Shown here: piece by piece, positions 15,963 through 30,893 of the stretch
Layout of the letters: the number at the start of each line of letters is the position of its first letter
Position numbering within the stretch: position 1 is the first letter of the stretch
Assembly: GCA_016844945.1 (NCBI GenBank)
Contig: JAERTJ010000063.1
Span: 1 to 64,000 of the forward strand
Direction of reading: 5' to 3'
DNA: 64,000 nucleotides
DNA from: Fidelibacterota bacterium
Lineage (GTDB): Bacteria > Fidelibacterota > UBA8477 > JABMPR01
Notes under the pieces: generated by a model
What the model was told of the DNA's origin: nothing
Databases searched by the model: none
The model's input: only the letters and a program-made list of their open reading frames with translations
Program-made: the position numbers and the translations under genes

Positions 15963-17138
15963 TCAAAATTTTGACGTGATCCCCAACATACGAACAAAGC
16001 GCTTCAAGCCGCTCCCACGCTGGGGTTTCACATAATCCTCATCTAAACCGGAACCAATGTACTTGGAGGCCAGTTGCTGATAGTTCAAAGCCAATTCGGA
16101 TCCAGGATGTCTAAGTCCTATGATTTCCCGTTTGGCATAGGTGTCAACAAGTCTGTCACGGTCTGAGACCACGGAACCCAGATATTCAGGAGTAATTTTG
16201 AATACTGAGTTTTGATTAACATGCTGATCAATCGTCTGTTTCAGGGATTGATAAAGATTGTTACCGTGACGGATATTATGTACCTGGTTTAAAATAAACC
16301 AGGGTGAGTAGGTATATTCCCGTGATTCACCTTCACTCATGGTCTGCTTACTGTTGATTTCTACAAAGCGACCGAAGGCTGCCTTCGCCGCCGCATAGCC
16401 CGAAATGATATCATTTGGTGTGGTCACGATGCATGAGTCATCTGCCATAAGGGCGAAATCAATGACATGACGGGTAATGCCGGCACCCAGGTCGAAAAGA
16501 ATAAGGTCATACTTAAATGAGATGTTCTGAATATGACGGAAAAACCTCTGCTTTTGGGACCAGGTCATATTCGCCAGCTTAAATTCACCACACTCACCGG
16601 GGATAAAATGGAATCCATATTCTGTTTCCACTACCAGATCATCCAACTCCACCTGCTTGTTAAAGAAATTGTAAAGTGTGTTTTCCGGGAAAAGTTTCAG
16701 TTTGTTAGACACATCAGCATTGCCCAGATCTAGATCAAAAAGGAGTACTTTCAAGCCTAGCCGTGCAAATTGATGGGCTAACTCGATTGAAACCGTCGTC
16801 TTCCCCACTCCCCCTTTATTGGAAATGACGGAGAGGATGTTGCCTCTCGGTGCCACCACATTCTGTTTCTCTGAAACCAGCATGCGATGATAGATACCTT
16901 GTTTAATAAGTTTCAACTCATGCTTCAATAACTCAGACTGAATCGTGTAAAAAGAGGTGTCATACCCTGTGGTCAACTGTCCAACATTCCTGATAAACTC
17001 ATGATTGCTCACAGCACGAGGGCTTCGGGCGGTTATCAGACGACTGTTTTCCACAGCGATGGGAAGAAATTCATGGTGTTCAAGATGAACTGGATTGAAT
17101 TTTTTGACTAACTCTCCATCTATGATCAGCTCACGCAT
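15963..17138 (-). CDS. ParA/MinD-like ATPase with N-terminal extension, second copy beside FlhG
   Basis: A 391-residue protein with an N-terminal extension of about 97 residues, a deviant Walker A motif KGGVGKTT at 108-115, the A-prime motif LLFDLDLGNAD at 132-142 and the Walker B segment LILFDLGAG. This is the P-loop of the MinD/ParA/FlhG family. The C-terminus is basic (KPQRGSGLKRFVRMLG), which could be a membrane or partner-binding tail, unlike a classical MinD helix. It ends the flgF operon directly after csrA. It is distinct from the FlhG at 30009, so two such ATPases belong to this region. A role in flagellar placement, pilus or chemotaxis-array positioning is possible; none is shown. 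Confidence 0.8.
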   Translation of the reverse strand: MRELIIDGELVKKFNPVHLEHHEFLPIAVENSRLITARSPRAVSNHEFIRNVGQLTTGYDTSFYTIQSELLKHELKLIKQGIYHRMLVSEKQNVVAPRGNILSVISNKGGVGKTTVSIELAHQFARLGLKVLLFDLDLGNADVSNKLKLFPENTLYNFFNKQVELDDLVVETEYGFHFIPGECGEFKLANMTWSQKQRFFRHIQNISFKYDLILFDLGAGITRHVIDFALMADDSCIVTTPNDIISGYAAAKAAFGRFVEINSKQTMSEGESREYTYSPWFILNQVHNIRHGNNLYQSLKQTIDQHVNQNSVFKITPEYLGSVVSDRDRLVDTYAKREIIGLRHPGSELALNYQQLASKYIGSGLDEDYVKPQRGSGLKRFVRMLGITSKF

Positions 17139-17146
17139 AAAATAGC

Positions 17147-17398
17147 TTACGCTCCACTTTTCTCAGTTTTAACAGGTTTTTTTAATCCTGCCAACGCATT
17201 CCCCAATTGAGCCGTACTCACTGTCGCGGCACGATTTTGTTCCTGGATTTTCTCGTATATTTCGTTTCGATAGACTGCAACATCTTTTGGTGCATCTATT
17301 CCAATTTTTAAATATCTGGAGGAACTCTCCAAAATGGATATAACAATGTTATTCCCGATTCGAATGCTTTCTCCAGACTTCCTTGTCAATATGAGCAT
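17147..17398 (-). CDS. csrA: CsrA translational regulator
   Basis: An 83-residue protein beginning [15 protein letters not shown], the invariant opening of CsrA/RsmA, with the central [20 protein letters not shown] and [10 protein letters not shown] segments. It binds GGA-containing hairpins in mRNA leaders and in motile bacteria limits flagellin translation. About 25 residues extend past the core, longer than E. coli CsrA. It lies directly after fliW, its usual antagonist, which supports the FliW-CsrA-flagellin partner switch. Confidence 0.95.
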
Positions 17399-17422: not shown

Positions 17423-17887
17423 CTATGAAAGTTCGTTTTGCATTGGATGTTCAACAGATAGATTCGCGTTGTCTAGAATTACCTGATTGGCAACCCCTGA
17501 TTTCGGATTGAAAACAATGGGTGCCTTTATATTGCCAGTAAACTCCTGCGTTCCGTGATTGACCCGAAGAATGATATACTGCTCTGAGTCATCTGTGCTA
17601 TCAATATTCAGAATCTGAAGTTCCCTGGGAGGAATTTCAATATTTTTCCAGATTGATAGAAGTTTAGCTTCAATAACCAGCATAGAGATGTCTGGTTCAT
17701 CCAGTGATTGGAATGCGCAAAATGGTGCATACCCCTCGAGTTCACCCAATACGAATGCGTGCAAATCCTCGAATCCTGGCAATCCATTGATCAAGTCAAT
17801 GTTTTTAGATGTAGTCATAGGTATCCCACCAAAAGAGTTACTTGTTTTTACCGAGTCGTTCGGTACCGTATGTGTTTCATTTTTCAT
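17423..17887 (-). CDS. fliW: FliW flagellar assembly factor (CsrA antagonist)
   Basis: A 154-residue protein with the FliW core: INGLPGFEDLHAFVLGEL near residues 33-50, FCAFQSLDEPDISMLVIEA, YIILRVNHGTQEFTGNIKAPIV broken over strands 4-6, and a C-terminal VANQVIL segment. FliW binds either flagellin or CsrA. The first 23 residues precede an internal Met24 and could be a variable extension. The start overlaps flgL by 4 nt (ATGA), and csrA follows 24 nt downstream, so hook-filament junction proteins and the flagellin homeostasis switch are co-transcribed. Confidence 0.92.
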   Translation of the reverse strand: MKNETHTVPNDSVKTSNSFGGIPMTTSKNIDLINGLPGFEDLHAFVLGELEGYAPFCAFQSLDEPDISMLVIEAKLLSIWKNIEIPPRELQILNIDSTDDSEQYIILRVNHGTQEFTGNIKAPIVFNPKSGVANQVILDNANLSVEHPMQNELS

Positions 17888-18765
17888 CGAACAAAATCCA
17901 TAATATTTAGCTTTAAGGCTTTCGTTGTTATCTGAAGTGCAGCTTCATATGCCATTTCTGCACCGTTGTACTGCATGATTGTTTCTGCTAGATCTGCATC
18001 TTCTGCTTCCGATAGAAATGACATGATATTTGTTTTAGCAGTTTCAAGACGTGTTTCAGTCATTTGCATGTGGTGACGTGATAATCCATTCTGTGCTTCC
18101 AATCCCATGACATTGTCCGCTGCATCTTCCAGCGTGTCCATGAGGGATGCAACCAGTGGTGGATCATTTGCTGCAAGTGCATCACGCAATTGGACCAATG
18201 CGTCGAATACTCCAGAACCAGCAATCTCACCACCAGTCACATTAATTTCAACTTCCATACCTTCAGAAATTTGACGGCGCATTTTGCCCTCATTACCACT
18301 GTAGGTCACAATACTGCCATCATAGTCAAAGGGGGTCAAGTTTTGTGTATCAGTTCCTGAGAATATTGATTTTCCGAGATAAGTACTGTTTAAAATAGCT
18401 ACGCTTTGTTCAATCATCCCATCCACCCTGTCTGAAAGTACCAGTCGAGTCTCTTCAGATTGCGAAGCATCTGTACCTTGAATAGCCACGGAGCGTGCAT
18501 CGACAACCAGGGAATGAAATTCATTAATAACAATGGCATTATTGTCTACCCAACCGAGGCCATTATTAATGTTTCTAAAATATTGATCATATTGAGAAAT
18601 GGTTTTCCGGTAACGTGAAGCCCGAGAAAATTTGACAGGGTCATCTGAGGAATGATTAATTTCCTTCCCAGTCGCGGATCTTTCCTGCAGCTCTGTCATC
18701 GTTTCCCGGTTCAGATTAAGATTCTGAATGAGATTTCTCGACATGATGGATTGTGTAATTCGCAT
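17884..18765 (-). CDS. flgL: Hook-filament junction protein FlgL
   Basis: A 293-residue member of the flagellin/FlgL family. The N-terminal MRITQSIMSRNLIQNLN with SSDDPVKFSRASRYRK and the C-terminal helix ENADLAETIMQ-like segment (EDADLAETIMQYNGAEMAYEA) form the D0/D1 coiled coil. It is exported without a signal peptide and joins the hook to the filament together with FlgK. It follows flgK by 12 nt. Confidence 0.92.
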   Translation of the reverse strand: MRITQSIMSRNLIQNLNLNRETMTELQERSATGKEINHSSDDPVKFSRASRYRKTISQYDQYFRNINNGLGWVDNNAIVINEFHSLVVDARSVAIQGTDASQSEETRLVLSDRVDGMIEQSVAILNSTYLGKSIFSGTDTQNLTPFDYDGSIVTYSGNEGKMRRQISEGMEVEINVTGGEIAGSGVFDALVQLRDALAANDPPLVASLMDTLEDAADNVMGLEAQNGLSRHHMQMTETRLETAKTNIMSFLSEAEDADLAETIMQYNGAEMAYEAALQITTKALKLNIMDFVR

Positions 18766-20141: not shown

Positions 20142-20666
20142 TCACACCTGACAGTCGACGTGGGTTTTTGTACCCTGACTCTTTGCCAGTACACCTCGCC
20201 CACCATAGTGAACATTTTCATTTTCATCAGATCCTAACAAGACCTGTACAAGCCCTCTCACTAAATCAACAGAAGAGTTGAGGAGGAATTCGTTCTCGCG
20301 ATTAGCGTGAGCGATTCGATCGAGACTTTGGATGAGTTCTTCTCTGTGCCCGATCAATTTCTGTGAATGGTGAGAGGGTGACAGATCAATTAATTCCTTC
20401 AGTGAGGGTGATTTAACCCTCAGATTTGATTCTGCGCCAATCGTTGATGCGCAGATTTCCCTTGCCTGGGTTGCTTTCTGAATACGTGGAATTAATCGTT
20501 GTTCTTCATGAACAATATTCTGCAGGGTCTCAACGTCCCCGCTAATAATACTGGTTTGCTTCCCTTTCAGGAGCAAATCCAATTCTTTATACATTTGTAC
20601 TTCAATTGAAAGACTGCTTACTAGTTCCTGAAACAGTCCTTCCCTATCAGTCATCATTTCAGTCAT
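20142..20666 (-). CDS. flgN: FlgN-type export chaperone
   Basis: Helical, acidic-basic protein of 174 residues if started at ATG 20666 (MTEMMTDREG). A frame open to 20738 would overlap flgJ by 80 nt, while the ATG has a GGAG about 9 nt upstream and overlaps only 8 nt. The sequence LLLKGKQTSIISGDVETLQNIVHEEQ has the FlgN-type pattern of a coiled coil followed by a GDxExL segment. FlgN holds FlgK and FlgL for the export gate; flgK and flgL follow directly. Called partly on position. Confidence 0.75.
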   Translation of the reverse strand: MTEMMTDREGLFQELVSSLSIEVQMYKELDLLLKGKQTSIISGDVETLQNIVHEEQRLIPRIQKATQAREICASTIGAESNLRVKSPSLKELIDLSPSHHSQKLIGHREELIQSLDRIAHANRENEFLLNSSVDLVRGLVQVLLGSDENENVHYGGRGVLAKSQGTKTHVDCQV

Positions 20667-21060
20667 TTTCCAGCTCCGATGTACTAATATTTTGTAATAG
20701 CCCCATGGTCTGTAGATAATCGTTCCCACCAACGCCATCTAACTCAGGCGCTTCATCCATTTGCTTCAAAGACGCAAAGATGACTTTTGAGAGGCCAATA
20801 CCCCCGCCACTTGTCATGGCATCACCCATAACTGAGCCAAACATCATTGTGGACAGCGTATTGTTATTGCCACCACTCTTTGGAATGGTTTTTTCCATAG
20901 ACTGGATCAGCTGCGTGAGAAATACTGCCTCCAACTCATTACTCTTTTTCATGAGTTGTGCATCTCTCATGCTCTCATTCTCACCGAGCTCTTTGGATGA
21001 TTCTGCCTGCTTATTCAGCTTGGGCTGATGATCAATGCCTATGAAATCTGATATATTCAT
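20659..21060 (-). CDS. flgJ: Rod-binding protein FlgJ, N-terminal domain only
   Basis: A 133-residue protein covering only the rod-binding domain of FlgJ: NELEAVFLTQLIQSMEKTIP near residues 42-61, MMFGSVMGDAM and GGIGLSKVIFASL. The C-terminal peptidoglycan hydrolase domain found in Enterobacteria is absent, as in many deltaproteobacteria and spirochaetes, so a separate hydrolase must open the wall for the rod. It follows flgI by 8 nt and overlaps flgN. Confidence 0.88.
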   Translation of the reverse strand: MNISDFIGIDHQPKLNKQAESSKELGENESMRDAQLMKKSNELEAVFLTQLIQSMEKTIPKSGGNNNTLSTMMFGSVMGDAMTSGGGIGLSKVIFASLKQMDEAPELDGVGGNDYLQTMGLLQNISTSELEND

Positions 21061-29816: not shown

Positions 29817-30016
29817 GAATCACTCTTGTTTTGCGGCGTCATTACGATGAAGCCTAGTTTTAGAACTTGTCCAGAAATGTAGAACGCGAATAATACACCT
29901 ACGAATACGATTCCTGTCCTGATTAAGCTGGTTGCAATCGATATGTTTCCAATCATACACATTACGAAAGTAATAGTGGATACCAGCACTGCAAATTTGT
30001 TAGCTAACTTAATCAT
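29813..30016 (-). CDS. Small two-span membrane protein between flhG and fliA
   Basis: A 67-residue protein with two hydrophobic helices (about residues 8-27 and 32-57) and short polar ends. I do not recognise a family. It overlaps flhG by 8 nt and fliA by 4 nt, strong evidence that it is translated as part of the operon. Small membrane proteins occur at this position in other flhF-flhG-fliA operons; their role is unknown to me. Confidence 0.65.
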   Translation of the reverse strand: MIKLANKFAVLVSTITFVMCMIGNISIATSLIRTGIVFVGVLFAFYISGQVLKLGFIVMTPQNKSDS

Positions 30017-30893
30017 TGTCCTTACCTACTGTTATGTGTCTATGCTCCCGGACACCTTGAAAAAGACCCGTCCGTTCTGTGGCATCTTTTGAGGGGAGCT
30101 TTAATAAATTTCGTGTCATCAGTTTTAATGCATTCGAGGGGCGTGAATTGGGATACTCTAATACAACAGGTGTCTGCCGACGAACAGCATCCTGGACATT
30201 CTCATCCCTCAGGATAGCCCCACCAAACAGGATTTTGCTTTGCAAAAATCTCTGCACCATCAAATCCATTTTTTTGAATAGATTTTCACCTTCATCTTCA
30301 CTATGAACCATATTGGTAACCAACATGATGGCAAGATCAGGTGCTTTCTGCAGCAAGATTTTTATCACACCATAGGCATCTGCAATTGATGCAGGATCCG
30401 GTGTTACCACCACCACAACTTTATCGGCACCCAGGGAGAATGAAGTCACATTACGACCAATACCTGCCCCTGTATCCACAACTACAATATCGTAATTGTG
30501 TTCAAACCCGAGAAAAGATTCTTCAAGTTTTTTCAAAACATCTTCTTCTGCATCTATCATATCAAGCACTGCAGAGGAAGCAGGGAGTACATCTATGCCT
30601 GTGGGTCCTTTTACAATGATATCTTCAAGGGTCTTCTCCCCTGAGATGACATCAGCAAGATTTCCAGAGGGTCGAAGTCCCAGCATCAGGTCCACATTAC
30701 CCAGATGGATATCTGCATCAACCAGTAGAACATTTTTCTTGAGCCGTCTCAACAACAGAGCAAGGTTGACACTGATGTTGGTCTTGCCTACTCCACCCTT
30801 ACCAGAGGTAATGGCAAAGATTTCTGGTCGATTGGTTTCTTTCCTCAGATTAGCGAGGGTGAAGAAACGTGAACTTGATCCTGTTTCGGACAT
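30009..30893 (-). CDS. flhG: Flagellar number regulator FlhG/FleN (MinD-like ATPase)
   Basis: A 294-residue MinD-family ATPase with GKGGVGKTNISVNLA at residues 31-45, LLVDADIHLGNVDLMLG and VVVDTGAGIGRNV. The N-terminal ANLRKE segment before the P-loop resembles the FlhG element that stimulates the FlhF GTPase. FlhG controls flagellar number and, in some species, restrains the master activator. Its start touches the flhF stop, typical of flhF-flhG pairs. Confidence 0.93.
   Translation of the reverse strand: MSETGSSSRFFTLANLRKETNRPEIFAITSGKGGVGKTNISVNLALLLRRLKKNVLLVDADIHLGNVDLMLGLRPSGNLADVISGEKTLEDIIVKGPTGIDVLPASSAVLDMIDAEEDVLKKLEESFLGFEHNYDIVVVDTGAGIGRNVTSFSLGADKVVVVVTPDPASIADAYGVIKILLQKAPDLAIMLVTNMVHSEDEGENLFKKMDLMVQRFLQSKILFGGAILRDENVQDAVRRQTPVVLEYPNSRPSNALKLMTRNLLKLPSKDATERTGLFQGVREHRHITVGKDND

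Follow-up and report, generated by a model that had tools for sequence, protein, structure and literature searches.

The place and number of flagella are usually explained by FlhF and FlhG. In the portion of PMC12826062 that was consulted, FlhG acts on FlhF through an N-terminal DQAxxLR helix, and both MinD and FlhG cycle on the membrane by means of ATP-driven dimers and a C-terminal helix; neither 'paralog' nor 'N-terminal extension' occurs in that portion. ParC has a basic DNA-binding C-terminal tail, as described in the consulted part of PMC10241942. MshEN, the N-terminal module of the PilB/GspE/MshE motors, binds c-di-GMP primarily in its N-terminal half (PMC5013675), and residues 65–145 of MshE correspond to the MshEN_C subdomain. 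According to the titles of three structure entries (2bh1, 4pht, and 7lkm), the N-domain of GspE/PilB contacts inner-membrane platform proteins or PilZ. The 2016 paper on MshEN names other fusion partners, with ParA/MinD absent from its main text (PMC5013675), and no earlier description of an MshEN–MinD fusion was found in our literature search, which lay mostly outside subscription journals and supplements.

The gene studied here lies in a stretch of 64,000 nucleotides that was analyzed as a whole (the window), and it belongs to a family of FlhG-related ATPases that spans several phyla and as yet has no name. The first-pass annotation had recognized an extra ATPase distinct from FlhG, which holds, and had missed the family. 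Like FlhG/FleN/YlxH, the window ATPase combines the ATPase core sequence and fold, the switch residues, a possible C-terminal membrane helix, and a flagellar setting; unlike them, its family lacks DQAxxLR, has an added domain of the MshEN type, groups in a clade of its own, and is present in addition to FlhG. Its gene is also not beside flhF; it is the other copy, at 30009, that neighbors the flhF-like frame. With MinD, the family shares a deviant Walker A ATPase and possible membrane cycling, but E. coli MinD falls outside the group of FlhG plus the family (on a long and so unsure branch), and neither minC nor minE is found beside the window gene. ParC, ParA, Soj, and CpaE belong to the same superfamily; the window gene differs from them in its neighbors (csrA and a PseB-like gene), in the presence of a Soj-like copy (by reading) elsewhere in the genome (L004), and in an extension that is not predicted as a receiver fold. 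In comparison with the MshEN of MshE/PilB/GspE, the predicted fold of the window N-domain is that of the C-terminal subdomain, and most of the other members tested give clear sequence matches, whereas the window copy lacks the c-di-GMP half, scores below the cut-off, and is fused to a MinD-type ATPase.

Gene position and ATPase core

The interval 15963–17138 is full of stops on the plus strand, while the minus frame is open from an ATG at 17138 to 15963 and encodes 391 aa. Two further genomes of the genus carry, at the corresponding position, orthologues that are 78–80% identical over their full length, and a different family of the phylum has one with 50% identity (G208, an assembly given as 8% contaminated). 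As synonymous change within the genus is saturated while dN is 0.15–0.16, and as the orthologues are conserved in place, the frame is not due to chance. Purifying selection within the genus was nearly as strong on the N-domain (pN of 0.12–0.16) as on the ATPase part (pN of 0.12–0.14).

The start codon lies 8 bp downstream of csrA (17147–17398, minus strand; Pfam CsrA PF02599, 3.4e-23), which is preceded by fliW (17423–17887, minus strand; FliW PF02623, 1.2e-25) and a flgL-like frame (17884–18765, minus strand), an order kept in G016, G018, and G208. The ATPase gene is the last of a one-direction run of flgF, G, A, H, I, J, N, K, L, fliW, and csrA, in which fliW and csrA were confirmed by Pfam and the flg names, like that of flhF elsewhere in the window, were given by reading of the sequences. 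It is followed by a PseB-like epimerase gene (Polysacc_synt_2, 7e-96) within a cluster of PseB-like and NeuB-like genes, which probably serves flagellin glycosylation. No ParB-like gene adjoins it, the immediate neighbors being csrA and fliW upstream and the PseB-like gene downstream. The first-pass annotation is thus borne out in placing the gene in one operon with fliW and csrA at the end of the flgF run, in finding no adjacent ParB partner, and in locating KGGVGKTT at residues 108–115.

Two further observations concern the same genome. The FlgJ-like frame of the window (20659–21060, 133 aa) comprises the rod-binding part only (a sub-threshold Rod-binding match) and lacks a muramidase part; the opening of the wall for the flagellum may therefore fall to another enzyme. 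The stated completeness of the assembly is 90.7% and its stated contamination 6%. Another of its contigs (L042 1–6049; G000:C210) opens with the C-terminal 94 residues of a further copy (75% identity) and continues with sugar genes clustered in the same order as in G002 (L036); in light of the contamination, this further copy probably represents a second strain that was binned together.

The ATPase domain spans about residues 99–362 (16053–16844, minus strand). Pfam assigned AAA_31 to residues 100–241 (6e-19), and the best matches among solved structures were FlhG/FleN proteins both by sequence (the first five) and by predicted fold (PDB ranks 1–10). The mean pLDDT was 90.0 for the whole protein and 89.3 for the N-domain alone. 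The switch residues are intact. The KGGVGKT of the deviant Walker A motif (KGGVGKTT, 16794–16817, minus strand), including the signature lysine, is present in 29 of 29 family rows, and D135 and D137 of the second switch motif LFDLDLGNAD (residues 133–142, 16713–16742, minus strand) are invariant in the same rows. The DQAxxLR helix was detected by pattern in none of the 29.

An amphipathic segment around GSGLKRFVRMLG at the C-terminal end (about residues 374–386, 15981–16019, minus strand) is a possible membrane anchor. Its hydrophobic moment of 0.80 was reached by 3.2% of shuffles, which is suggestive only, and the predicted structure has a helix at residues 377–384 with a pLDDT of about 63–67. 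The C-terminal end is similar in 27 of the 29 rows; in others of the nine members tested the amphipathicity was weaker (e.g., 32% of shuffles for L094). For the ATPase part, no NCBIfam model passed its cut-off among the best 25 of 35 matches of the window protein or in three other members, where the c-di-GMP motif model alone passed, in L113. PHROGs matches of the window protein were limited to two models, one without a name and one for ParA-like partition proteins.

The N-terminal extension

The extension of about 97 residues reported in the first-pass annotation is real, as the ATPase fold starts near residue 99; what had been missed is its probable identity. It is best read as a reduced MshEN, with residues 1–81 (16896–17138, minus strand) corresponding to the MshEN_C subdomain. 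This assignment of the window copy rests on its predicted fold and on its family, because profile tests with its own sequence failed. The N-domain fell below the Pfam MshEN cut-off (E of 0.049; 14.1 versus 23.1 bits), as did two close orthologues, one at 14.0 bits and the other without a match. A profile of four window-type N-domain rows retrieved no MshEN chain from the PDB (only an unrelated match at E of 0.63), and its hhalign alignment with eight Syntrophales-type N-domains failed (probability of 0.1%).

By predicted structure, the extension was recovered not as a receiver fold but as a PilB/GspE-N type. Via this predicted structure, the N-domain matched 5htl_A (MshE 65–145) with a Z of 9.9 over 76 residues and an rmsd of 2.4; the top 17 rows of the fold search were all of the PilB/GspE/MshE type, the next row having a Z of 4.5, and Foldseek gave an E of 7e-4. 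The predictions used alignments that included clear MshEN rows, which may favor this result.

Among the other members, Pfam MshEN (PF05157) scored above the cut-off in eight of ten tested, at 1e-18 to 7e-13 (L113 at 1.2e-18, L103 at 7e-13, L094, L096, L086, L104, L090, and L106, but not L081 and L107). A 20-row profile of the family N-domain matched PilF (3e-24), PilB (6e-16), and MshE (2e-7) chains in the PDB. The members grade from a whole MshEN through half of it to none (L082, L083, and L111), and in L105 and L107–L109 an unrelated stretch, disordered-looking by eye, stands in place of MshEN. The window protein begins after the c-di-GMP-binding half, and the tandem RLG...Q motif for c-di-GMP was not found in 28 of the 29 members, the window protein among them. 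The first motif is kept in one of the 29 and in a second member from the Poribacteria phylum. Of these two, L113 (Poribacteria) was scanned with the 53-residue c-di-GMP motif model NF053729, which it passed with 60.8 bits (cut-off of 38) over residues 20–72. The family is an FlhG/MinD switch in a new domain setting, namely an MshEN–MinD fusion whose ATPase was named by no curated model among the matches listed.

A family beside FlhG and its link to flagella

A tree of 85 rows was drawn by midpoint, with no ParC row and no named CpaE row among them. From loci L084–L113, fragments or near-copies (L092, L098, L104, and L112) were left out of the alignment and tree, and L084, L085, and L110 were counted once, under L006, L005, and L083. 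All 29 family rows fell in one clade with a support of 100/99, within a starred group of 59 that also held all 24 FlhG/FleN rows and six other rows; the Soj-like rows lay outside this group. Two Zixibacteria/GN15 FlhG rows were nearer to the family than other FlhGs (91/86). A topology that joins the four window-type rows to the FlhG rows of Neomarinimicrobiota/Calditrichota was rejected (p-AU of 1.5e-5), and FlhG as one exclusive clade without the family was not (p-AU of 0.161). The separate clade and the rejected topology rule out a recent FlhG duplicate; judged from the sequences, the family is either sister to FlhG or branched off from it early.

The genome's own FlhG (30009–30893, minus strand) was identified by its match to FleN (5j1j, 4.5e-56) and its place in the tree. 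It adjoins frames read as flhF and flhA, the latter confirmed as FlhA by PF00771, and is about 31% identical to the window ATPase over the core. The separateness of the two copies noted in the first-pass annotation is therefore upheld, and the phylogeny it had called for, against FlhG and MinD rows, gave the family its own clade, not grouped with the Soj-like L004 of the genome. This FlhG has no DQAxxLR helix. By pattern, the helix was present in 5 of 12 FlhGs from family-holding genomes and absent in seven (30009–30893 of the window, and others among L163–L175), including three Neomarinimicrobiota and two Zixibacteria/GN15 ones inspected; FlhF activation may differ in the genomes where it is absent.

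Other assignments were set aside. A partition ParA was rejected for want of an adjacent parB and for the distance of the window ATPase from L004 and the other Soj-like rows in the tree, and a pilus CpaE is considered improbable, as the N-domain is predicted to fold in the PilB/GspE-N manner and the neighbors were read as flagellar. ATPases of the f3 family of genomes (G034, G023, G029, and G038) were 36–41% identical over the core but did not fall in the clade, and their surroundings gave no match to the flagellar proteins of the window. L007, L008, L009, and L010, from Neomarinimicrobiota f3, form a separate tight MinD-like group near but outside the family clade, and the neighbors of L007's ATPase copy were read as non-flagellar.

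A scan of species genomes recovered at least 30 loci at an E of 2e-45 or better, followed by a gap to generic MinD/CpaE-like matches at 2e-14 and worse. By record names, the family occurs in at least six phylum-level groups (Deltaproteobacteria/Desulfobacterales/Syntrophaceae, Zixibacteria/GN15, Calditrichota, Planctomycetota, Poribacteria, and Neomarinimicrobiota). The 1e-40 profile cut-off was not clean in the Poribacteria phylum, where the family profile also matched an FlhG at 1e-43; in the contrasts for the Syntrophaceae class and Zixibacteria, all family matches were at 1e-130 or better.

Open-frame copies were found in 6 of 245 Neomarinimicrobiota genomes, four with the N-domain (G000, the window genome, and G016, G018, and G208) and two without it (G234 and G059). 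In the former four, which represent two families, the gene occupies the same place after csrA. The gene is dispensable: in G001, a flagellated close relative, csrA is directly followed by pseB; G002, which keeps FlhA, FlhF, and FlhG, has a decayed copy (L036 5781–6026; G002:C80) whose N-terminal part contains an internal stop and whose ATPase part is gone; and only 6 of the 42 FlhA-bearing genomes of the phylum hold the gene. G142, in which FlhA was not found, has a broken short-form piece (L117 173–487), which fits a loss together with flagella in this one incomplete assembly.

The family tends to follow flagella and to occur alongside FlhG, in agreement with the flagellar tie proposed at first pass from the position of the gene. 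In the FlhA search, for which a PF00771 control matched 4 of 14 well-known genomes, FlhA was present in all six open-frame holders of Neomarinimicrobiota versus 42 of 245 genomes overall (hypergeometric, 1.9e-5), and 36 FlhA-bearing genomes had no open-frame copy. The class of G253 (a Syntrophaceae record) comprised 42 genomes, with 20 family holders and 21 FlhA bearers: 19 had both, one the family only (G256), two FlhA only (G293 and G295), and 20 neither, i.e., FlhA in 19 of 20 holders versus 2 of 22 non-holders (Fisher, 8.6e-9). These p-values ignore shared descent, and presence and absence are visibly clumped in this class. Outside the window's phylum, FlhA was found in 24 of 27 holders; two of the three without it (G256, G257, and G262) may be incomplete, and G262 (a Planctomycetota record) is 9.0 Mb. 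The contrast was uninformative in Zixibacteria, with FlhA in 8/8 holders but also in 105/132 genomes. Of the 13 holder genomes inspected in this respect (10 of them outside the phylum), 12 have FlhG next to FlhA; in the thirteenth, the contig ends too soon.

Proposed function and rival explanations

We propose, with about an even chance of being right, that the window ATPase is a second membrane-cycling FlhG-like switch that docks on a flagellar or envelope partner. An MshEN domain was probably already joined to the ATPase in the family ancestor. ATP binding would dimerize the window ATPase and press its C-terminal amphipathic end onto the inner membrane, and hydrolysis would release it. Its MshEN_C-like N-domain would couple these steps to a partner located at the base of the flagellum or in the envelope close by; docking through the N-domain is proposed because most members have an MshEN-type domain in place of the DQAxxLR helix and because the N-domain of GspE/PilB is titled as making platform or PilZ contacts. 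The ATPase would work beside FlhG and not in its place, probably late, as its gene is the last after flgK-flgL-fliW-csrA, and may determine the sites or times at which flagella are completed or kept, or their number.

Neighbors were clustered for 34 loci on 32 distinct contigs, covering up to 7.5 kb and often less. In Calditrichota L111 the family gene lies inside a large flagellar cluster, and in G234 it is near frames read as flagellin and fliD; outside Neomarinimicrobiota and Calditrichota it is often away from flagellar genes. Loci of the Syntrophales type have a mutS-like gene before (eight loci) and a response-regulator-like gene after; where the contig extends far enough, matches to fliM to fliR lie upstream at a distance of about 4 kb or more.

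Placement of chemotaxis arrays, as by ParC, had been raised in the first-pass annotation. Extra ParA/MinD ATPases can each serve one cargo, according to the part of PMC10241942 consulted, but no family read as CheA or CheW recurred in at least 3 of the 34 clustered loci, the core is FlhG-like, and the C-terminal end looks like a membrane helix, unlike the tail of ParC; this role is now very improbable. The second role suggested at first pass, an adjustment of flagellar number jointly with FlhG, is possible. A plain spare FlhG that could replace FlhG in working with FlhF would account for the shared fold and the flagellar setting. We nevertheless consider it quite unlikely, since the family forms a separate clade, an FlhG near FlhA is kept in nearly all holders inspected, and DQAxxLR, used by FlhG on FlhF in the consulted text of PMC12826062, is absent from every family row, although several FlhGs of holder genomes also have none.

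The ATPase might instead be a c-di-GMP-linked anti-activator in the manner of FleN on FleQ, binding a sigma-54 activator, with the MshEN part as its c-di-GMP sensor. The closest folds include FleN, and the two Poribacteria-phylum members that keep the first motif, one of them passing the curated model, fit such a role; the window protein, in contrast, has lost the half in which c-di-GMP binding primarily sits (PMC5013675), the motif is missing from nearly the whole family, and this explanation is unlikely. A role in steering cell-wall opening or a bactofilin scaffold at the flagellar insertion site appears improbable to us as well. In the genomes of the extension-less members L082, L083 (=L110), and L111, the next gene encodes a protein of about 510–540 aa with a C-terminal M23 peptidase domain (L082 3092–4657, L083 2790–4415, and L111 8872–10410). 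Of 12 Neomarinimicrobiota searched for the specific N-terminal part of this protein, two had it, and these are precisely the two that carry extension-less members. A bactofilin-like frame is next to the family gene in four Desulfobacterales loci (L087, L088, L098, and L106; Pfam-checked in three), and PMC10945521, in the portion consulted, describes a bactofilin that acts together with an M23 peptidase. Neither gene is beside the window copy, however, and the specific part of the M23 protein was not found in the window genome. The joint occurrence of N-domain loss and the M23 partner in three genomes suggests that the partner may take over the docking role of the lost domain.

The docking FlhG-like switch remains our preferred reading. 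It can be extended, possibly but doubtfully, to a flagellar positioning factor of a third type that stands next to FlhF and FlhG: an old FlhG-related ATPase, at first a c-di-GMP receptor joined to a membrane switch, as in Poribacteria today, would have tied the sessile/motile signal directly to flagellar place or timing; the c-di-GMP half would have been lost in Desulfobacterota and Neomarinimicrobiota, leaving the rest as a docking site, which a separate M23 partner would have replaced in Calditrichota-type members.

The family offers concrete, testable proteins with simple predictions. With an apparently intact c-di-GMP motif in one lineage, c-di-GMP might act directly on where flagella are placed, and a second conserved FlhG-like clade found alongside FlhF and FlhG in several phyla, with a domain taken from pilus and secretion motors, would be a missing part of flagellar patterning.
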